Below, in pieces: positions 12,911 through 22,842 of a stretch of DNA of 64,000 bases (the first letter of the stretch is position 1; each line of letters begins with the position of its first letter). The stretch comes from Paenibacillus spiritus. GTDB taxonomy: Bacteria; Bacillota; Bacilli; Paenibacillales; Paenibacillaceae. The stretch lies in contig NZ_VYKK01000015.1 of assembly GCF_008710135.1 (NCBI RefSeq), forward strand, positions 310,001 through 374,000, in the 5' to 3' direction. The notes below the pieces were generated by a model. That model was not told the origin of the DNA, ran no database searches, and saw nothing but the letters and a program-made list of their open reading frames with translations. Position numbers and translations under genes: made by a program.

Positions 12911-12939
12911 CAGGCAGGGACGTTAATCCCTGCCTTTTT
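12911..12939 (+). terminator. intrinsic terminator after the MFS gene
   Basis: AGGCAGGGA / TCCCTGCCT 9-bp stem with a 6-nt loop, followed by TTTTT on the plus strand. It closes the unit just before the TerB-ATPase-helicase operon. Confidence 0.9.
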
Positions 12940-12993
12940 GGCGCGCCGAAGCGAATAAATGTTCCCGCCGGGCGGAGACTCCGGCGGCATTCA

Positions 12994-13002
12994 TGGTATA
13001 AT
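12994..13002 (+). promoter_or_regulatory. extended -10 promoter of the TerB-ATPase-helicase operon
   Basis: TGGTATAAT (TG-n-TATAAT) lies 55 bp before the first start codon. No good -35 is visible, as expected for an extended -10 promoter. The upstream terminator at 12939 means this should be the operon's own promoter. Confidence 0.55.
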
Positions 13003-13056
13003 GGAGCTTACTTAGATAATGGCGGCAGGCTTCTGGCAGCCGCAGGGGAGCGTATC

Positions 13057-14871
13057 GTGATGAGACATGACCATGAGCCCCGCTTCTCGGAGCTGATCTT
13101 CGAGAACGAGCAGCGGGAGATGCCGGTTCCGCCGCGGGATTCCGCTGCGGCCCGGGAGGACGGCGCAGACGGCCGAAGCCGGAAGCAAGGGAAGCCCGGC
13201 CCGAAGGGAGGAAGGACAGAACCGGTTCCGCCGCGGCAGATCTCCCTCTGGGAGGAGGCCTCCCCCGGACCGGGTCGTTCGTCTGCGCCGGCGAATGGAC
13301 CGGGCCGCCTGAGAGGCGAGGCCCCGGTTCCGGCCCGTACGCTGCCGCCTGCGGGAACCCCGCAGGCCAGGATACCCGGCCGTCCGCCATCTCCGGCCGA
13401 AAGACCGGCCCAGCCGCTCCGCCAGACCGCCGGACCCGGGAACCGGCCGCCGACGACGGAGAGCCTGTTCGCGGAGCGGGCCGGAGAACTGGCGACGTAC
13501 CGCGAGCCGGAGGCCGAATTTGTCCCCTTCAAGAGCTATTGGCCGACCTACGGCCATATGGACCGCCACCAGACGAAATGGTATTTCTACTGGCGGAACG
13601 AGGTGCGGGAAGGGCGTTATCCGAAGACCGACCTATCGTATATTTTTCTGCATGTGTACGAGCTCATTAACGGAGTCGGCTGGGAGACCCCCGAAGACGG
13701 CGCCAGGCAGCTGAATGCGATCTGGGAAGCCTACCGGCATGCATACAAGCGCCTGGATCAGTATCTGGGCGGCTGGATCGCCGATTTCAGTCTGGTGCAC
13801 GGGCTGAAGCTGCCCTTGGGCACGGTGGTGGAGCGCTCTCGCGGGCTGGCCGGAGATCTGGGAGAGCTGGAACTGGAGCGCTGCCTGACCGCCGCGCCGG
13901 ACGAGCTGACGCTTGCCGCGCTTCAAATGATGTCGGATTATGACCTGTCGAAATCGAAGTTTTTTGAAGGGGACGGGGAGGAGGCGCTCCGGCGCTGGGT
14001 CCCGAAGACCGTGGCCCTGGTTGACGCTTATATTCTCAGGACGCACGGCCAGCGGCTGATCGAGATGTTCCCGCCTGAACCGGCCGTTATGCGGGAACGC
14101 TATTTGTTCCGCAGCGCCGTCTACGACATCTCCCTCTACGGCTATTCGGTCGTCGTTCCCGTGGTCCGGGTCAGCAAGACCCCTGCGCTCCGCAGTCTGG
14201 TCACCCGGATCTTCCGGCTGACGGAGAATAAACTGCGCGCGCTGATGGGCTACAAAGGCCGGCTGAAAGGCATTTCCATCGACCCGGCGATCAAGGAGCT
14301 GGTTGAGAAGTATCTGGACCGCGAGTATGCCCGTTCCCTCCGGGAACAGGCGGGGCCGGCGGTCGTCATTGACCGCAGCCGGCTGGAGCGGCTGCAGAGC
14401 GACTCCGATACGGTCCGGGAGCTGCTGACGATCGAAGCGCCCGAGGAAGAAGCCGACGCACCGGCCCCGATTCAGCCGGAGAGCGGAAGGCCCCCCGGGG
14501 CCGAAGGGGAAGCGCCGGAAGAGCCGGACGCCGAAGGCGAAGTACCGGAAGAGCCGCAAGCTGGAGGCGAAGCACTGGAAGAGCCGGACGCCGGAGACGG
14601 TCCCGGTCTTTCCCTGCCGCCCGAGGCCCCTGCCGAGTGGCGGGATTTCCTCGACGCTCTGCCGTCTTCGCTTCATCCCGTTCTACAGGCGCTCGCCGGC
14701 GAGAACGGGAGGGAAGAACTCGCACAGGCGGCGGCTGCGGCGGGAAGGCTGCCCGAGCTTGCCGTCGATGAAATCAATGATGCCGCGATGGAGCATCTGG
14801 GCGATCTGCTGATCGACGGAGATCAGTGGAATGAAGAATTTGCTGAGCTGCAGACGTATGTGAAGAGGTGA
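13057..14871 (+). CDS. TerB_N / TerB_C domain protein
   Basis: First gene of a three-gene operon. 605 residues from GTG 13057 (ATG 13060 directly follows; GGGGAG upstream). Residues 1-150 are a low-complexity Pro/Gly/Arg-rich linker. About 155-360 is a TerB_N domain (HQTKWYFYWRNEVREGRYPK, TDLSYIFLHVYELINGVGWE). About 484-513 holds three tandem 10-residue acidic repeats (GEAPEEPDAE, GEVPEEPQAG, GEALEEPDAG). The end (WRDFLDALPSSLHPVLQALAGEN through LAVDEINDAAMEHLGDLLID) is TerB_C. No central TerB domain, TerC, TerD or TerZ is present, so classic tellurite resistance is unlikely. In surveys such proteins accompany helicases and P-loop ATPases, as here. Confidence 0.85.
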   Translation: MMRHDHEPRFSELIFENEQREMPVPPRDSAAAREDGADGRSRKQGKPGPKGGRTEPVPPRQISLWEEASPGPGRSSAPANGPGRLRGEAPVPARTLPPAGTPQARIPGRPPSPAERPAQPLRQTAGPGNRPPTTESLFAERAGELATYREPEAEFVPFKSYWPTYGHMDRHQTKWYFYWRNEVREGRYPKTDLSYIFLHVYELINGVGWETPEDGARQLNAIWEAYRHAYKRLDQYLGGWIADFSLVHGLKLPLGTVVERSRGLAGDLGELELERCLTAAPDELTLAALQMMSDYDLSKSKFFEGDGEEALRRWVPKTVALVDAYILRTHGQRLIEMFPPEPAVMRERYLFRSAVYDISLYGYSVVVPVVRVSKTPALRSLVTRIFRLTENKLRALMGYKGRLKGISIDPAIKELVEKYLDREYARSLREQAGPAVVIDRSRLERLQSDSDTVRELLTIEAPEEEADAPAPIQPESGRPPGAEGEAPEEPDAEGEVPEEPQAGGEALEEPDAGDGPGLSLPPEAPAEWRDFLDALPSSLHPVLQALAGENGREELAQAAAAAGRLPELAVDEINDAAMEHLGDLLIDGDQWNEEFAELQTYVKR

Positions 14872-14880
14872 CGTTAATTC

Positions 14881-16218
14881 ATGAATCAGGTCAAAATTCC
14901 GAAGCGGGTCCTGACCGCGCTTGTCCACTCTCTGACGGCGGGCGTGGTGCCGCGCATCGGACTTGAGCATATCGCCGTCGGACGGCGGCCGGAGATCGAA
15001 GCCATGCTGAGAGATCTCGACAATATCAAGGACGGGGGAGCAGCCTTCCGGCTCATCACAGGGCGATACGGAAGCGGCAAAAGCTTCCTCCTCCAGACCA
15101 TCCGCAATTATGCGATGGACCGCGGCTTTGCCGTGGCCGATGCCGACTTGTCGCCGGAGCGGCGGCTGGTCGGCACGAAAGGCCAGGGGCTCGCGACCTA
15201 CCGCGAGCTGATAGGCCATCTCTCCATCCGGACGCGGCCGGACGGCGGAGCGCTGGAATCCATTTTGCAGAAATGGATCTCGGGCATTCAGCAGCGGACG
15301 ATGGCGGAGCAGGCACTGAGTCCGGACCACCCGGATTTTGCCCCGGCAGTGGAACGGGAAATCTATGAGACGGCCTCGCATCTTAGGGGGCTGGTGCACG
15401 GATTCGACTTCGCCAAGGTGCTGGCCGCTTACTGGAACGGGCATAAATCCGCGGACGACGGGCTGAAGGGCGACGCGCTGCGCTGGCTGCGCGGCGAATT
15501 CGCGACCAAGACGGACGCCCGCCGCGCGCTCGGGGTGGGCGTCATTATCGACGACGACAACTGGTATGACTATATGAAGCTCTGGGCGGAGTTCTGCGCC
15601 GGGATCGGATACGGAGGTCTGCTGCTGTTCATCGACGAAGGCGTCAATCTGTACAAAATCACGAACACGGTCTCGCGCCAGAGCAATTACGAGAAGCTGC
15701 TGACCATGTTCAACGACACGATGCAGGGCAAGGCCGAACATCTGGGCATCTTCGTGGGCGGCACGCCGCAGTTCGTTGAAGACAGCCGCAGAGGGCTGTT
15801 CAGCTACGAAGCGCTTCGTTCCCGGCTGGTGGGAGGCCGTTACAGCGCTGGCGCCGGCAATTATGCCGGGCCGATTCTGGCGCTTCACATGCTCTCCCAC
15901 GAGGAGATTCTGGTGCTGCTGCGCCGGCTGACGGACATTCACGCCCAGCATTTCGGCTATTCGCCGGATCTGACCGAAGCCCAGCTGGTCCACTTCATGG
16001 AAGCGGCGGTCGGACGGCTGGGCGCGGACGAGCTTCTGACCCCGCGTGAAGTGATCCGCGACTTTCTGGACCTGCTCCATACGCTGCACGAGCACCCGGA
16101 GCGCTCCTTCGAGCAGCTGGTCGGGGAGACGGCGGGCCGGAGCGCTGCCGCCACTGCCGCCTCTTCGGAGGAGCCGGCGGATGAGCTGGACGGCTTTCTG
16201 GCGGAGTTCGAGCTGTGA
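14881..16218 (+). CDS. BrxD-like (DUF2791) P-loop ATPase
   Basis: 445 residues related to the ATP-binding protein BrxD of BREX/Pgl-type systems. Walker A is GRYGSGKS at residues 61-68; Walker B is LLLFIDEGVNL with Asp252/Glu253. A sensor-like stretch FVGGTPQFVEDSRRG and an Arg-rich SYEALRSRLVGGRY follow, then a helical C-terminal domain that is acidic at the end. ATG 14881 lies 9 bp after the TerB-protein stop, with GAAGAGG overlapping that stop. The helicase start overlaps its TGA by 4 nt, so the three products are made in a coupled way. Likely role: an AAA-type motor or loader for the helicase. Confidence 0.88.
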   Translation: MNQVKIPKRVLTALVHSLTAGVVPRIGLEHIAVGRRPEIEAMLRDLDNIKDGGAAFRLITGRYGSGKSFLLQTIRNYAMDRGFAVADADLSPERRLVGTKGQGLATYRELIGHLSIRTRPDGGALESILQKWISGIQQRTMAEQALSPDHPDFAPAVEREIYETASHLRGLVHGFDFAKVLAAYWNGHKSADDGLKGDALRWLRGEFATKTDARRALGVGVIIDDDNWYDYMKLWAEFCAGIGYGGLLLFIDEGVNLYKITNTVSRQSNYEKLLTMFNDTMQGKAEHLGIFVGGTPQFVEDSRRGLFSYEALRSRLVGGRYSAGAGNYAGPILALHMLSHEEILVLLRRLTDIHAQHFGYSPDLTEAQLVHFMEAAVGRLGADELLTPREVIRDFLDLLHTLHEHPERSFEQLVGETAGRSAAATAASSEEPADELDGFLAEFEL

Positions 16219-18437
16219 GCGGCCCCGGCAGCAATCCGTTCTACCGGCTGGCCCCTTTTGTCAAAGAATTCATCTATAAGAACCGCTGGGAGACGCTCCG
16301 GGAAGCGCAGGTGGACGCCTGCCGGGTCATTCTGGACTCGCCGGACCATCTGCTGATTGCCTCGGGTACGGCTTCCGGCAAGACGGAGGCCGCCTTCTTC
16401 CCGGCCCTGACCGAGCTGGATGAGCAGCCCTCCTCCTCGGTGGGCATTCTCTATATCGCGCCGCTGAAAGCGCTCATTAACGACCAGTTCACCCGGCTGA
16501 ACGATCTGCTGCTGGAAGGCGGCATTCCGGTCTGGCATTGGCACGGGGATGTGCCGCAGGCCGAGAAGACGAAGCTCATGCAGAACCCGTCCGGGGTCCT
16601 TCAGATTACCCCCGAGTCGCTGGAAGGTCTGCTGATGAACCGGCCGAATGCCATTCCCGCGCTGTTCGGAGATCTGCGCTTCGTGGTCATCGACGAGGTG
16701 CACGCGTTCATGGGGGCGGACCGGGGCATTCAGGTGCTCAGCCAGCTCGCCCGCATCGCCTGGATGGCCGGCTGCAATCCGCGCCGGATCGGTCTGTCCG
16801 CGACGCTCAGCGACTACGACTCCGTGACGGCCTGGCTTGCGGCGGGGACGAACCGCCGGGTACAGGTGTCCGCTCCCCAGGGCGGGCGCAGGCTGCGGCT
16901 CAGCATTGAGCATTTCTCCTTCCCGGATGCGCGCGACGAGAAGCAGGCGGAGCAGCTGGAGCTGGCCCGCAAAGCCTATTATGACTTCATCTACGACCAT
17001 TCTCATCTCCAAAAAGCGCTCATCTTCACCAACTCCCGTTCCGATGCGGAGAATGCGATCCTGGAGATGCGCCGGATCGCCGCCCGCCGGCAGGAGCCGG
17101 ATGTGTTCCATGTCCATCACGGCAGCATCTCCTCGATGCTGCGCGAAGAAGCGGAAGCCGCGCTGCGCCAGGGCCCCGGTCCGGCCGTGGCGGCGGCGAC
17201 GCTGACGCTGGAGCTCGGCATCGACCTCGGCGAACTGGAGCGGGTTCTCCAGCTCGGAGCGCCGTACAGCTGCGCGAGCTTCGTTCAGCGGCTCGGCCGT
17301 TCGGGCCGAAGAGCCGGCTCCGCTTCGGAGATGCTGTTCGTCACGCCGGAGGAAGAGGACGAGGAAGCCCAGCTTCCCGCCCGGATGCCCTGGACGCTGC
17401 TTCGGGCCATCGCCGTCGTGGAGCTGTATGTCCGCGAACGCTGGGTGGAACCGCTGGAGACGCGCCGGTTCCCGGCGGGTCTTCTGTACCACCAGACGAT
17501 GAGCATTCTCAAGAGCATGGGCGAAGCAGGGCCGGAGGAACTGAAGCAGGCGGTGCTGGCCCTGCCCTCGTTCCGGGAAATATCGGAAGAGGACTATGAG
17601 GCTTTTGTGGAGTATCAGCTTGGGATGGGCCATATCGAGCAGATGGACGAGGGCGGTCTGATTCTTGGCCTTGCCGGAGAGAAGATTGTGAACAACTACC
17701 GGTTCCTGGCCGTCTTCAAGGACGACGAAGAACATGTGGTCTATAACGGAACCGAAGAGATCGGGTCCATCACCACCGTTCCGCCGCCGGGTTACTGCTT
17801 CTCGCTGGCCGGGAAGCTCTGGAAGGTGGAAGAGGTGGACAAGCGCCATAAGGCCGTCTATGTGAAATCTTCGCGGGGCAAGGTGGATACGCTCTGGCTC
17901 GGCGCAGGCGGCGACGTCCATACCCGGGTGATGGCGAAGATCCGCGATATTCTCGGCGCCGAGACGCTGTATCCGTACCTCGCACCGAGCGCGGCTGCCC
18001 GGCTCGAACGGGCGCGCAGACTGGCCAGAGAGAGCGGCCTGCTGCTCCGGTCCGTGCTTCCGGCGGGGGGAGACTCGGTGTTCATTCTTCCCTGGACCGG
18101 AAGCCGGCCGTTCCGCACGCTGGAGAGGTTGCTGAAGCATAAGCTGACCCGGCCGCTGGGCCTCCGGTCCGTGGTACCGATGGAGCCGTACTATCTGGTC
18201 GTCGCCGGGAAAGCCGATGCCGACTGGCTGGAGGCGGCCATTCGGGATGAATGCGCCGGTCTGGACGACCCGCACCTGCTGCTTGCGCCCGGCGAGGCTC
18301 CTTTTATCGGCAAATACGATGAATTCATTCCGCCCGACCTGCTGCGCAAGGCGTTCGCGTCGGACGGACTGGATGTCCAGGGACTGAAGAAATCCGTACA
18401 AGCCTGGGAGAAGGAAGGCGGGCCCTTCGCCCGCTGA
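16215..18437 (+). CDS. Lhr/BrxHI-like DEAD/DEAH-box helicase
   Basis: Superfamily 2 helicase of 740 residues. Motif I is GTASGKT (51-57); Ia region IAPLKALINDQ; motif II IDEVH (159-163); motif III LSATLS (194-199); motif V region TLTLELGIDLGELE; motif VI QRLGRSGRR (358-366). Residues beyond about 390 form an Lhr-type C-terminal region. GTG 16215 overlaps the ATPase stop as GTGA. No nuclease, methylase or PglZ gene is adjacent, so this is not a complete BREX locus. The trio is best read as a stand-alone DNA-processing, repair or anti-phage complex; that role is inference. Confidence 0.88.
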   Translation: MSGPGSNPFYRLAPFVKEFIYKNRWETLREAQVDACRVILDSPDHLLIASGTASGKTEAAFFPALTELDEQPSSSVGILYIAPLKALINDQFTRLNDLLLEGGIPVWHWHGDVPQAEKTKLMQNPSGVLQITPESLEGLLMNRPNAIPALFGDLRFVVIDEVHAFMGADRGIQVLSQLARIAWMAGCNPRRIGLSATLSDYDSVTAWLAAGTNRRVQVSAPQGGRRLRLSIEHFSFPDARDEKQAEQLELARKAYYDFIYDHSHLQKALIFTNSRSDAENAILEMRRIAARRQEPDVFHVHHGSISSMLREEAEAALRQGPGPAVAAATLTLELGIDLGELERVLQLGAPYSCASFVQRLGRSGRRAGSASEMLFVTPEEEDEEAQLPARMPWTLLRAIAVVELYVRERWVEPLETRRFPAGLLYHQTMSILKSMGEAGPEELKQAVLALPSFREISEEDYEAFVEYQLGMGHIEQMDEGGLILGLAGEKIVNNYRFLAVFKDDEEHVVYNGTEEIGSITTVPPPGYCFSLAGKLWKVEEVDKRHKAVYVKSSRGKVDTLWLGAGGDVHTRVMAKIRDILGAETLYPYLAPSAAARLERARRLARESGLLLRSVLPAGGDSVFILPWTGSRPFRTLERLLKHKLTRPLGLRSVVPMEPYYLVVAGKADADWLEAAIRDECAGLDDPHLLLAPGEAPFIGKYDEFIPPDLLRKAFASDGLDVQGLKKSVQAWEKEGGPFAR

Positions 18438-18515
18438 CCGTCAAGCGCGTCTGTTGAGCGGCTTGGCTTGTTGCAGCGGTTTGGCCTGTTGTATCGGCCC
18501 GTACTTCTCCAACTT

Positions 18516-18556
18516 CACGAAACACCGCCTCCGCGGCGCGGAGGCGGTGTTTCGTG
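18516..18556. terminator. long hairpin ending the TerB-ATPase-helicase operon
   Basis: A perfect 19-bp stem (18516-18534 with 18538-18556) and GGC loop between the helicase stop and the convergent permease stop. Its AAA and TTT sit inside the stem rather than as a separate U-run. It probably ends transcription from both sides. Confidence 0.75.
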
Positions 18557-18583: not shown

Positions 18584-19654
18584 CTACAGAAAGACGGCGC
18601 CTGCGGCGCCGGCCAGCACGCCGGCAGCCACGACCGCACCTACCAGCAGCCAGACCACCCGGCGCGGGAACGAGCGGTACACCATCAAGAGCGAAGGCAG
18701 GCTGACGGCAGGCAGCGTGACCAAGAGCGCGCCGGCCACGCCGGTGCCGAAGCCCAGCGAGAGGAACGTGCCGATAATCGGAATCTCGGCGGCCGTCGGG
18801 ATAACGAATAAAGTACCGGCGACGGCGAACAGCACAACCATCAGGACGCCGGAGAGCGCACCGGCATCAAGCGAAGGGAACAGCCAGGCCCGAACGGCGC
18901 CGAGCAGCAGCACCGCGACAAGGTAAGCCGGAACGATGGCAACCAGCATCCGGCCCATGCTGGCAAGCCAGCGCAGCAGTAGCGGGCGGTTGTCTTCGTC
19001 CGCGTCAAATGCTGAATCGGCGGCCGGTTCGGGAACGGTCTGATCTCCGGCGAACCGGTTGGCGAAATAACTGACTCCAAGGGTAAGCGCCAGGCCGAAC
19101 ACGATCCGCATGACGGTGAACTTCCAGTTCAGGACAAAGGCCATGAAGATCAGCGTTGCCGGATTCAGCAGCGGGTTGCCGATCCAGAAGGCCAGGGCAG
19201 CGCCGACCGATACGTTCTTCTTGCGCAGGCCCACGGCAATCGGAGCGGCGCAGCAGGAGCACATCATGCCGGGCACGGCTGCGAGCGCTCCGACAGCTGT
19301 GCTCTTGAACCCGGCTTGGCCGAGCGTGCGGAGCAGCCAGCGGGTCGGAACCAGCACCTGAACGAGCGAGCCCAGAAGAATGCCGAGGACGGCAGCCTTC
19401 CAGACGGCCTTGAAGTAGGCGGACGCATAATCAAGAGCAGCCTGCAGCGAGGGCTCGGGCGTCTTGCCGGTCTCGCCGGTCAGAATGGAGGAGCCCAGCG
19501 TATGTTCCGCCGCGGCCTTCAGCGCCTTGCCGTAGTAAGGCCACCATTTGACATAGGACAGACCGGCAATGGCGACGATAAGAAACACGGCGGCAAGAAG
19601 GATGGTGCGGGCGCGGCCAGCGCCGGGCTCTGCCGTATGGGAAGAAGGTGACAT
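18584..19654 (-). CDS. ArsP/DUF318-family permease
   Basis: 356 residues, about eight to ten membrane helices. Hallmarks are a Cys motif and Asn-Pro motif in the first repeat (VPGMMCSCCAAPIAVGLRKKNVSVGAALAFWIGNPLLNPATL). The second repeat has FVIPTAAEIPIIGTFLSLGFGTGVAGALLVTLPAVSLPSLLM. The family includes exporters of methylarsenite and other permeases of unknown substrate. It lies divergently 150 bp from selD, which makes a selenium or other chalcogen/metalloid substrate worth testing, but nothing in the sequence proves it. Confidence 0.82.
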   Translation of the reverse strand: MSPSSHTAEPGAGRARTILLAAVFLIVAIAGLSYVKWWPYYGKALKAAAEHTLGSSILTGETGKTPEPSLQAALDYASAYFKAVWKAAVLGILLGSLVQVLVPTRWLLRTLGQAGFKSTAVGALAAVPGMMCSCCAAPIAVGLRKKNVSVGAALAFWIGNPLLNPATLIFMAFVLNWKFTVMRIVFGLALTLGVSYFANRFAGDQTVPEPAADSAFDADEDNRPLLLRWLASMGRMLVAIVPAYLVAVLLLGAVRAWLFPSLDAGALSGVLMVVLFAVAGTLFVIPTAAEIPIIGTFLSLGFGTGVAGALLVTLPAVSLPSLLMVYRSFPRRVVWLLVGAVVAAGVLAGAAGAVFL

Positions 19655-19805
19655 AAGCTGACTGAACCTCCACGGTGTTTAATTTGAAAATGCTATCTAT
19701 TATAGCATGTTTTTGCCCGAGACACACTGATTTTGTCCCGTGGACGCAAAGGGCGTATGATAGAATGGACAACCATATGTATTCTCAATAAGGAGTTGAA
19801 GTCTC

Positions 19806-20855
19806 ATGTCCGCTTCCGAATCCGTTAAACTGACCTCTCTGTCTTCCAAAGGGGGCTGCGGCTGCAAGATCGGCCCCGCCGATCTCATGCAGGTGATCCG
19901 CAGCCTTCCGCCGGCTGTGCCCAATCCCGACCTTCTGGTCGGACTTGATACGAGCGACGATGCCGGCGTATACCGTCTGTCGGACGAGCTTGCGCTGGTC
20001 CAGACCGTTGATTTCTTCACTCCGATTGTGGATGACCCCTATGCGTTCGGACAGATTGCCGCAGCCAACGCGCTCAGCGACATCTATGCGATGGGCGGCA
20101 AGCCGCTGACCGTGCTTAACATTGTGGCCTTTCCCATCTCCACGCTCGATAAAAGCATCCTGGCCGACATTCTGCGCGGCGCCGCCGACAAGGTCGCCGA
20201 AGCCGGCGCCACGCTGGTCGGCGGGCATTCCATTGACGACAAGGAGCCGAAGTTCGGCCTCGCCGTCACGGGAACGGTCCACCCGGACCGGGTGCGCACC
20301 AATGCGGGCGCCCGTCCCGGAGATCAGCTTATTCTGACCAAGCCGATCGGCGTCGGCATTCTGACGACCTCCTTGAAGAGGGGGCTGCTGTCGGAAGAGG
20401 AAATCCGGCGGGTGACCGCCGTAATGTCTCTGCTGAACAAGACCGCAGCGGAAGCCATGGGTTCCTACGACGTGCACGCCTGCACCGACGTCACGGGCTT
20501 CGGGCTGCTGGGACATGCCTCCGAGATGGCCAAAGGCAGCGAAGCCGGTATCATCATCCGCAGCGAAGCCGTAAGAATTCTTCCGCGCGTCCGCGAACTG
20601 GCGGAGGCCGGAGCCGTTCCCGGCGGGACGCGGAACAATCTGGCCCATGTGGAGGGATCGGTGATTTTCCCGGAGGAGATGGAGTTGCTCGACCGCTATA
20701 TTCTGTGCGATGCGGTAACCTCGGGCGGTCTGCTGATCGCGGTGCCGGAAGCGGAAGCGGAAGCCCTGCTGGGCGATCTGTTACAGCTTGGCCTTGAAGC
20801 GGCGCACATCGGGGAAGTGACCGGAGACCATCCGGGTATGATCCGGATTATCTGA
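19806..20855 (+). CDS. selD: selenide, water dikinase (selenophosphate synthase)
   Basis: Makes selenophosphate from selenide and ATP. 349 residues, normal length. The N-terminal catalytic region is SSKGGCGCKIGP, with Cys (TGC) where many relatives have selenocysteine. AIR-synthase-like ATP-binding parts follow: VGLDTSDDAGVYRL, LVQTVDFFTPIVDDPYAFGQIAAANALSDIYAMGG, and DVTGFGLLGHASEM. ATG 19806 follows AAGGAG. mnmH lies 37 bp downstream in the same direction, so the selenophosphate is probably used for 2-selenouridine in tRNA. No selA/selB/selC is in the window. Confidence 0.95.
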   Translation: MSASESVKLTSLSSKGGCGCKIGPADLMQVIRSLPPAVPNPDLLVGLDTSDDAGVYRLSDELALVQTVDFFTPIVDDPYAFGQIAAANALSDIYAMGGKPLTVLNIVAFPISTLDKSILADILRGAADKVAEAGATLVGGHSIDDKEPKFGLAVTGTVHPDRVRTNAGARPGDQLILTKPIGVGILTTSLKRGLLSEEEIRRVTAVMSLLNKTAAEAMGSYDVHACTDVTGFGLLGHASEMAKGSEAGIIIRSEAVRILPRVRELAEAGAVPGGTRNNLAHVEGSVIFPEEMELLDRYILCDAVTSGGLLIAVPEAEAEALLGDLLQLGLEAAHIGEVTGDHPGMIRII

Positions 20856-20892
20856 AGTTCCGTACACCAAGGAGAGCGAAGGAGAGAGGACG

Positions 20893-21945
20893 TTGTTTCA
20901 AGATATATCGCTAACGAAGCTTCAGGAATTGGCGGACCGCAAGGAATTGACCGTCATCGATGTCCGCTCGCCGGGAGAATATGAGAACTCCACCTACCCG
21001 GGCAGTGTGAACATCCCTCTGTTCGACAACGAGGAGAGAGCCGAGGTCGGCACGCTGTACAAACAGGCAAGCGTCCAAGCGGCCAAGCAGCGGGGGCTGG
21101 AGATTGTCTCCGCCAAGCTGCCCGCTTTTATCCGTAAGTTCGAAGAAATTCCGGGAGCGAAGGCGGTGTTCTGCTGGAGGGGCGGGATGCGGAGCCGGAC
21201 GACGGCGACCCTCCTGTCTCTGATGGATATTCATGTCTACCGGCTGGAGGGCGGCTACAAAGCTTACCGCAAATGGGTCGTGGATTCGCTCGAAGCCTTC
21301 GACTTCACCCCTGATTCCTGGGTGATTGAGGGTTACACCGGTACGGGTAAAACAGAACTGCTGCGCCGCCTGGCTGCCCGCGGCCTGCCTGCGCTTGATC
21401 TGGAGGGAATGGCCGGACACCGGGGGTCCATCTTCGGCCAGGTGGGACTTCGCCCCCACAACCAGAAGACCTTCGACAGCCTGCTGCTTGCGAAGCTGCT
21501 GGAATACCGGGATGCTCCTTTCGTGTTGTTCGAAGCGGAGAGCATGCGGATCGGGCGTGTGGTGATGCCTTCATTCATGGGTGAACAGAAGGAGAAGGGA
21601 ACCCGAATCCGGATTGAACTGCCGCTTGAAGAGCGGGTCCGGCAGATTATGGCGGACTATCGTCCGCAAGAACACGGACCGGCCATCCTTGATGCCTTCA
21701 GAATCATCAAGTCGCGGATTCATATTCCGGTCGCCGCCGAAATCGAGCGCCATCTGCTTGCCGGCCGCTATGCGGATGCCGTTCCGCTTCTTCTGGAATA
21801 TTACTATGATCCGCTCTACGATCACACCGCCGCTTCGGAGGAAGATACGAACACCCGGGTGCTCCGGGTGTCCGGTGTAGATGAAGCGGAACGGGAGGTC
21901 GTCCGGCTCCTGCAGGACCGTTACCGCCTCCCGGATACTCTATAG
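20893..21945 (+). CDS. mnmH: tRNA 2-selenouridine synthase
   Basis: Replaces sulfur by selenium in 2-thiouridine at the wobble position of tRNAs for Lys, Glu and Gln, using selenophosphate. 350 residues from TTG 20893 (GGAGAGAGG before it). The N-terminal rhodanese domain has the catalytic Cys in FCWRGGMRSRT. The C-terminal P-loop domain has VIEGYTGTGKTELLRRLAARG. Both domains are needed in the E. coli homologue YbbB/SelU. It follows selD directly, the expected partner arrangement. Confidence 0.93.
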   Translation: MFQDISLTKLQELADRKELTVIDVRSPGEYENSTYPGSVNIPLFDNEERAEVGTLYKQASVQAAKQRGLEIVSAKLPAFIRKFEEIPGAKAVFCWRGGMRSRTTATLLSLMDIHVYRLEGGYKAYRKWVVDSLEAFDFTPDSWVIEGYTGTGKTELLRRLAARGLPALDLEGMAGHRGSIFGQVGLRPHNQKTFDSLLLAKLLEYRDAPFVLFEAESMRIGRVVMPSFMGEQKEKGTRIRIELPLEERVRQIMADYRPQEHGPAILDAFRIIKSRIHIPVAAEIERHLLAGRYADAVPLLLEYYYDPLYDHTAASEEDTNTRVLRVSGVDEAEREVVRLLQDRYRLPDTL

Positions 21946-21960
21946 AAAGCAGGAAGGACT

Positions 21961-22842
21961 GTGAAGCTGCTCACCTTGAACACCCATTCCTGGATGGAAG
22001 ACAATCAGGAAGCGAAGATTCGCGAGCTTGCCCGTTTCATTCGGGAAGAACATTTTGACGTCATTGCCCTTCAGGAAGTCAATCAGAGCAAGGGAGAAAT
22101 GGCGGCCACGGATCTCGAACTGGAGCGTTTTGTACCCGCCGAGCCGGATATCCGGATTGCCCGCGATAACTTTGCGCTCGTGCTGCTCCGGGAGATCGGC
22201 CTGCCGTACTGGTGGACCTGGGTTCCGGTGCATACCGGCTTTGTCCGTTATGATGAAGGCATCGCGCTGCTCAGCCGGACTCCGATCGGGGAAGCCTTCA
22301 GCGAGTATGTGTCGGAAATGAGAGACTACGAGAATTATCGTACCCGCAAAATCGCCGGTATCCGCACCTCGTCGGCAGCGAAAGAGAGCTGGTTTGTCAG
22401 CGGCCACTTCGGCTGGTGGGAAGACGGGAAGGAGCTCTTCAGCCGGCAGTGGGACAACGCCCAGGCGTGTCTGGATGCGCTGGCTCCCGCCGCCGTCTAC
22501 GTGATGGGCGATTTCAACAATGCGGCCGAGGTGCGGGGAGAAGGCTATGATTATGTCCGTTCCCGGGGATGGACCGATCTGTACGAAGCGGCGGAGGAGA
22601 AGGACGACGGAGCGACCGTGGTCAAAGCGATCAAGGGCTGGGAAGGCAACCGCTCCCCGCTGCGCATTGATCTGATCTGGAGCAGCCGGACCGCGGCGGT
22701 TCGCTCGTGCTTGGTTGCGCTGAATGGCGTCCGGGGCGGCGTGGTGTCGGATCATTTTGGGGTTATGGCCGACATTTACCAATCTGCAAGCGGATTAAAT
22801 TCTCCGGCTCAATGCCATACTGATAGCATTAACCGGAGGTGA
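21961..22842 (+). CDS. endonuclease/exonuclease/phosphatase-family hydrolase
   Basis: 293 residues from GTG 21961 (AGGAAGG upstream), beginning VKLLTLNTHSWME. EEP-fold catalytic motifs occur in order: LNTHSW, VIALQEVNQS (metal-binding Glu), FVSGHFGWWEDG (catalytic His region), YVMGDFNNAAEVRGEGYD (Asp/Asn pair) and VVSDHFGVMADI (C-terminal Asp-His). No signal peptide, so it is probably cytoplasmic. Family members cut DNA, phosphoinositides or sphingomyelin; the substrate is not clear here. It starts 15 bp after mnmH and may share its transcript. Confidence 0.82.
   Translation: MKLLTLNTHSWMEDNQEAKIRELARFIREEHFDVIALQEVNQSKGEMAATDLELERFVPAEPDIRIARDNFALVLLREIGLPYWWTWVPVHTGFVRYDEGIALLSRTPIGEAFSEYVSEMRDYENYRTRKIAGIRTSSAAKESWFVSGHFGWWEDGKELFSRQWDNAQACLDALAPAAVYVMGDFNNAAEVRGEGYDYVRSRGWTDLYEAAEEKDDGATVVKAIKGWEGNRSPLRIDLIWSSRTAAVRSCLVALNGVRGGVVSDHFGVMADIYQSASGLNSPAQCHTDSINRR

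Follow-up and report, generated by a model that had tools for sequence, protein, structure and literature searches.

A complete Shango operon of a Paenibacillaceae lineage is present throughout the genus of Paenibacillus spiritus

Three tightly packed genes of Paenibacillus spiritus, encoding a TerB-domain protein, an ATPase, and a helicase, raise the question of which system they form and what that system does for a genus in which it is found everywhere. A preliminary description, made from the DNA letters alone, had taken the trio for an undescribed system, possibly for phage defence. The window analyzed here is a stretch of 64,000 nucleotides (NZ_VYKK01000015.1, positions 310,001 to 374,000) from a 4.3-Mb genome (G000) that holds the operon on contig C7; its features are listed in Table 1. 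The three genes proved to be coupled as described, and both the 9-bp gap and the GTGA overlap were found again on re-reading; all 20 other genus loci that were read preserve a 4-nucleotide NTGA overlap of sngB and sngC, with start codons picked mechanically. The operon also has its own extended −10 element and a closing hairpin, the latter stable but without a long T run. This hairpin sits between the convergent sngC and ArsP-type permease genes and is perhaps a two-way terminator, and the upstream MFS gene has a terminator-like hairpin of its own. None of these three elements (the −10 element, the MFS-side hairpin, and the hairpin after sngC) appears in the list of a pattern scan. Chance or an annotation artifact was ruled out by the NTGA overlap and by the contiguity of the three genes in 93 of 100 genus genomes.

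Table 1. Features of the sngABC operon and its upstream region in the window
Feature	Position	Strand	Details
Terminator-like hairpin of the upstream MFS gene	12912-12935		−16.8 kcal/mol, then T run
LexA-like site CGAATAAATGTTCC upstream of sngA	12952-12965		11.5 bits; weak, putative
Extended −10 promoter element TGGTATAAT	12994-13002	+	Read from sequence
sngA	13057-14871	+	604 aa; GTG start, ATG is the next codon
Domains of SngA			TerB_N 133-326, TerB_C 424-590; N-tail and linker disordered; weak winged-helix-like fold at the C-terminus
sngA-sngB spacing	14872-14880		9 bp
sngB	14881-16218	+	445 aa
SngB, BrxC/BrxD-type P-loop ATPase	14881-16218	+	Walker A GRYGSGKS, Walker B FIDE
Coupling of sngB and sngC by a GTGA overlap of stop and start codons	16215-16218	+	Read from sequence
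sngC	16215-18437	+	740 aa
SngC, Lhr-type SF2 helicase	16215-18437	+	Motifs GTASGKT, DEVH, SAT, QRLGRSGRR
19-pair-stem hairpin closing the operon	18516-18556	+	−38.5 kcal/mol, z −7.6; without long T run

Pfam profiles upheld the domain calls of the preliminary description, with matches to TerB_N (2e-31) and TerB_C (1.8e-14) in SngA, to BrxC_BrxD (2.7e-160) in SngB, and to DEAD (3.7e-25) and Helicase_C (1.5e-14) in SngC. PADLOC models of the anti-phage system Shango match all three proteins over most of their length, namely SngA at 3e-106 (residues 123 to 597 of 604), SngB at 8e-198 (residues 1 to 445), and SngC at 1.5e-236 (residues 6 to 728), and the gene order is that of plasmid-borne relatives. 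The trio is a complete Shango operon, sngABC, and the claim that the system is undescribed therefore fails. The PADLOC models for BrxD (2.2e-45) and BrxHI (3.6e-122) match as well, as would be expected of a Pgl/BREX type 2 locus reduced to BrxD and BrxHI, with a Ter-type protein attached; nonetheless, the Shango models score far higher, at 655.9 versus 153.6 bits for SngB against BrxD and 785.5 versus 407 bits for SngC against BrxHI, the NCBIfam BREX_BrxD equivalog yields 159.8 bits and does not reach its cut-off of 350, and a PglZ match is absent from the window's genome. With these scores and the missing PglZ, a BREX remnant is extremely improbable and was rejected. BREX type 2/Pgl does possess a related ATPase-helicase pair with a proposed loader-helicase logic (PMC12839542); the window locus differs from it in having SngA, in addition to the lack of PglZ and the score below the BREX_BrxD cut-off. 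A phage-borne system was also ruled out, with no match in 50,697 phage records.

The trio had been thought to have no experimental function, yet anti-phage effects of Shango have been published for P. aeruginosa and E. coli, and these relatives bear out the earlier guess at phage defence (PMC10250203). That source describes Shango from P. aeruginosa PA14 as an ATPase, a helicase, and a TerB-like protein that together lower plating of PAO1 10- to 100-fold for many but not all phages, and it mentions an earlier report of ~10-fold effects on two phages for E. coli Shango (PMC10250203). The TerB domain is common to Shango and Bunzi (PMC10952713). Altogether, the domains, the operon structure, and the defence guess of the preliminary description stand, whereas its claims of novelty and of a missing experimental function do not. 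The open-access PMC literature yielded no paper bearing on Shango in Paenibacillus, the open-access PMC titles listed on the Paenibacillus core genome and defence nothing pertinent to a fixed Shango, and the open-access papers listed no mechanistic study of Shango. The Shango literature also includes Millman et al. 2022. Compared to the known forms, the Shango of the window belongs to a separate Paenibacillaceae clade, its SngB being ~40 to 45% identical to the six plasmid forms in our tree, and it is fixed in one genus as a single copy per genome with ordinary flanks. Thus, a known system is found in an unusual setting, and its genus-wide fixation is the finding worth following.

The motifs of the two enzymes are intact. 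In SngB, the G, G, G, K, and S of Walker A and the D and E of Walker B are invariant in 14 aligned sequences, and no solved relative was found by sequence profile at E 0.1. BrxD is described as an ORC/Cdc6-type ATPase and a possible loader of BrxHI onto DNA in PMC12839542, which leaves Shango unmentioned. Long extensions bring SngB frames to 689 aa and SngA frames to ~1,500 aa in genomes of genus g8 (L032 to L042) and in Saccharibacillus (L177, L179, and L180). The helicase motifs of SngC are invariant in 38 aligned sequences (38 of 71 were used in the structure alignment). The SngC model (pLDDT 86.2) aligns over residues 6 to 735 with mycobacterial Lhr (5v9x; Z 30.8, rmsd 3.5, 638 residues aligned, 23% identity), ahead of the next entry by 6.5 Z units, and displays an SF2 core with an Lhr-like C-terminal architecture. 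It also aligns with MrfA/YprA at Z 24.3, which barely exceeds the Z of 23.0 for general DEAD-box helicases, and SngC, unlike MrfA, has no DUF1998 match in a Pfam search. Lhr and MrfA are not known to work with a TerB protein and a BrxD-type ATPase. No nuclease domain is among the Pfam matches of SngA, SngB, or SngC. SngC has been placed in one clade with BrxHI, DruE, and DpdJ (PMC12278908).

The AlphaFold model of SngA (mean pLDDT 78.8; 49 of 67 sequences were used in the structure alignment) has a mostly helical core (125 to 462) and a C-terminal domain (~515 to 604) with a disordered linkage. The C-terminus (525 to 604) weakly matches LysR-type winged-helix domains (VIA; Z 5.7 or less), and the core gave weak helical matches alone (VIA; Z 5.7 or less), all too faint to build on; Foldseek returned no match for the core fold at E 0.001 in the PDB or viral models, and a profile search for a solved relative gave nothing below E 0.48. 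Because no clear solved relative emerged, any role assigned to SngA is guesswork. Identity to the window protein is ~70% in TerB_N and the middle part, ~30% in the N-tail and linker, and 43% in the C-terminal part, and lengths range from 440 to 1,503 aa over 66 loci. Selection on the operon is purifying, with pN/pS of 0.36 for SngA, 0.15 for SngB, and 0.14 for SngC, compared to 0.03 for rpoB, among eight subclade members whose synonymous sites are near saturation.

The conservation of the trio, which the preliminary description had proposed to check, turned out to be close to complete. SngA and SngB are present in 100 of 100 genus genomes and SngC in 99. These counts apply to the genus as delimited in the genome set used; since neighboring genera in that set include species that NCBI names Paenibacillus, the claim of fixation is valid for the genus so delimited. 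The genome without SngC, G022, has a contig that stops at the end of the sngB stretch, and its match, to another helicase (81 bits), had brought the raw SngC tally to 100 before correction; G089 has sngC in part, on another contig. Best matches place the three genes side by side and in order in 93 of the 100 genomes. Among the other seven, sngB is split but in place in G028, G043, G052, G063, and G079, and in G022 and G089 the locus runs into a contig end. The five genomes with split sngB keep sngA and sngC; errors of assembly, frame breaks that can revert, or the onset of decay may be at work. G041 and G061 have a broken SngA frame. Split sngB and broken sngA together suggest that the locus may be dispensable, unless they are sequencing errors. 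Split copies aside, each genus genome has one SngB. As controls, PglZ passed its cut-off in 12 of these 100 genomes (six strong) and HsdR_N in 46. A fixed locus in the genus, named in the preliminary description as contrary to its reading, is borne out by these counts as far as presence goes.

Beyond the genus, presence becomes patchy. BLAST recovered the three genes in the order A-B-C from 39 of 40 regions sampled in the genus and the family; in a wider scan, the best 80 of at least 555 loci include 60 with all three genes and 56 with these in order, the remainder being in many cases short contigs or cases of SngA too diverged for BLAST. Among the matches listed, SngB of P. forsythiae is 80% identical to that of the window. 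SngB occurs in 149 of 295 genomes of the wider family and in 9 of 16 sampled genera (genus g2 by a single weak match), with no match in the other 7; it occurs in 57 of 75 genomes of the sister genus g7 and in 40 of 299 genomes of the phylum sample, with eleven matches above 500 bits outside the family. Thus, Shango is fixed in the genus, common in certain relatives, and scattered farther out, and a PADLOC call of Shango in this genus is not evidence of recent acquisition.

Defence systems are usually patchy and mobile, and they often lie in defence islands. The enrichment in such islands that the preliminary description had envisaged was not borne out: at 1e-5, PADLOC matches none of the ten flanking window genes, which rules out a defence island at the window operon, and at 1e-10 a scan of 20 genus loci, which took in 117 of 155 flanking genes, gave each PADLOC family at most 3 matching proteins as a raw count. 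All 7 other members of the window's subclade that were read repeat the order CNNM-DUF1836-MFS-sngABC, except that DUF1836 is absent in one and small genes separate MFS and sngA in another. Other subclades have different neighbors, such as a divergent gene for an M50B peptidase, and a comparison of 20 genus loci turned up no flank common to the whole genus. For the CNNM gene, the best matches lie elsewhere, at 58 to 65% identity, in 13 of 13 tested genus genomes of other subclades. Next to the trio, at 18584 to 22842 of the window, are genes for an ArsP-type permease, an AIR-synthase-type protein, a rhodanese, and an endonuclease/exonuclease/phosphatase-family protein. We take the AIR-synthase-type protein to be SelD-like and the rhodanese to be MnmH-like, and these neighbors are perhaps a selenium cluster.

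To what extent the operon has been inherited or transferred can be read from trees. In a tree of 131 SngB sequences, built by a quick method with long branches flagged (the P. peoriae plasmid copy among them), 53 family-type sequences form one side of a branch with support 99, apart from the six plasmid forms and 72 others. Distances of SngB plus SngC correlate with those of rpoB (Pearson 0.61; 0 of 2,000 permutations as high; 30 genomes, one marker gene), and the two trees have 15 of 27 splits in common. Ten strongly supported split pairs conflict, of which seven put g7, g8, g15, and g16 inside or across the genus and three lie within it. We read this mixture as the mark of an operon that has long been resident and has at times been transferred within the family. 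The conflicts, together with flanks that vary among subclades and family-type copies on two replicons filed as plasmids (213 kb in P. peoriae and 897 kb in P. cellulositrophicus), also fit an ordinary defence system that seems fixed owing to very successful horizontal spread within the family. However, the rpoB correlation and common splits, the one SngB per genus genome (split ones apart), the upstream flank repeated throughout the subclade members read, and a trio GC that tracks host GC from 44 to 60% (r 0.91, 20 loci) all speak against such spread, which we regard as improbable. The trio GC is 3 to 12 points above that of the flanks in 20 of 20 loci.

A further question is whether the resident form serves the host genome itself. 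The LexA-like site upstream of sngA bears on this; we take it to be one mismatch from the B. subtilis LexA consensus. The lexA promoters of 30 of 30 genomes each have one or more sites that differ from that consensus at two positions or fewer, and a matrix was built from 46 distinct lexA-promoter sites of the 30 genomes. The best site per lexA promoter scores 16.6 to 20.8 bits with this matrix, which was trained on these promoters, and the window site lies below all of them. Sites of at least 10 bits at −300 to +30 of sngA were found in 10 of 21 genus genomes, versus 9 of 318 regions before other genes of the same loci (Fisher 5e-9, relatedness ignored); this background includes the regions before sngB and sngC, and six of the nine, which were kept in, are the sngA site read from a divergent neighbor. 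Further genus genomes have such a site in 19 of 75 cases, compared to 1.6% for shuffles, which brings the total to 29 of 96 with and 67 without; G041, G043, G061, and G089 were left out of the count. The sites vary in sequence from lineage to lineage, suggesting that they arose several times. These sites give a weak hint that sngA may be under SOS control.

In the genus, SngABC might accordingly be chiefly a resident genome-maintenance complex, in which an Lhr-type helicase would repair lesions or stalled forks under LexA control in some species, with defence being the use made of it by mobile relatives. Presence throughout the genus, a single family-type SngB clade, flanks that are not defence-like, the excess of LexA-like sites before sngA, and a SngC fold nearest to Lhr and then to MrfA, a mitomycin-repair helicase (PMC12458937), are consistent with this. 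Nonetheless, the absence of a match from 7 of 16 family genera and 18 of 75 sister-genus genomes indicates that the locus is dispensable on that scale; two thirds or so of the genomes counted have no LexA-like site at 10 bits, the sites vary between close relatives and the genomes are not independent, every lexA promoter has a best site stronger than that of the window, and the MrfA match is little above that of general DEAD-box helicases. We therefore consider a primary role in maintenance rather unlikely, if worth keeping in sight. A bolder proposal casts SngABC as a core machine for guarding the genome, which much of the family would have inherited from its ancestor. It would act on replication DNA that is damaged or stalled, whether of the host or of a phage, and LexA would switch it on in several lineages, mobile Shango being a derived or sister form. 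This is speculative and we hold it to be unlikely; if true, Shango would join the cases in which immunity and DNA repair are one apparatus.

The explanation that we favor, and think probable, is a Paenibacillaceae-specific sngABC lineage, fixed as a single copy in the genus, in which SngC loaded by SngB would block phage replication and SngA would act as scaffold or sensor. SngB, as a BrxD-type AAA+ ATPase, would load or activate SngC on invading or replicating DNA. SngA, with its TerB_N/TerB_C scaffold, flexible linkers, and C-terminal winged-helix-like piece, may hold the complex together and recognize the target. Unwinding by SngC would then block phage DNA replication and perhaps expose phage DNA to host nucleases, which are invoked because the trio itself showed no nuclease domain. 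The loaded-helicase scheme is carried over to SngB and SngC by analogy with BrxD-BrxHI (PMC12839542) and from the clade to which SngC belongs (PMC12278908). Several points weigh against this explanation: sngB or sngA is broken in some genus genomes, SngA has no clear solved relative to guide a role, fixation and ordinary flanks are unlike those of typical defence genes, the 897-kb plasmid-filed replicon of P. cellulositrophicus (G021) holds the sole Shango copy of that genome, and no phage or DNA assay on a Paenibacillus Shango copy was found. Shango in the window's genus may be a permanent machine, either immune or for DNA maintenance. A three-gene defence system present throughout a genus is a natural test for a cellular role of Shango besides immunity, and the genus offers a stable place for studying it.

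Copies outside this lineage have a different appearance. A second, distant Shango type occurs in Paenibacillaceae, with SngB 40 to 46% identical to that of the window; G167 has both types (L098 on C1 and L099 on C28) and G219 the distant type alone (L100). We take this second type to be how an ordinary mobile copy looks. SngB matches were found in 692 plasmid records, 690 of them below 60% identity, including 449 from Klebsiella and 144 from Salmonella, and 542 were typed as conjugative; the weakest, at 22% identity, is annotated as a BREX protein. The six plasmid relatives read have the same A-B-C order, the first two genes of the haloarchaeal one being annotated as hypothetical. Four of the six regions adjoin IS elements, toxin-antitoxin, or type IV secretion genes, and the other two had no such neighbor in the stretch read. 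On the P. peoriae plasmid (NZ_CP011513.1, L243), SngA reaches ~1,050 aa and a phospholipase-D-like gene lies two genes downstream of sngC. In L246 and L248, plasmid Shango lies near genes for SMC-type ATPases, in the haloarchaeon also near a metallophosphoesterase gene, an arrangement that recalls the SbcCD/Mre11-Rad50 pairing.
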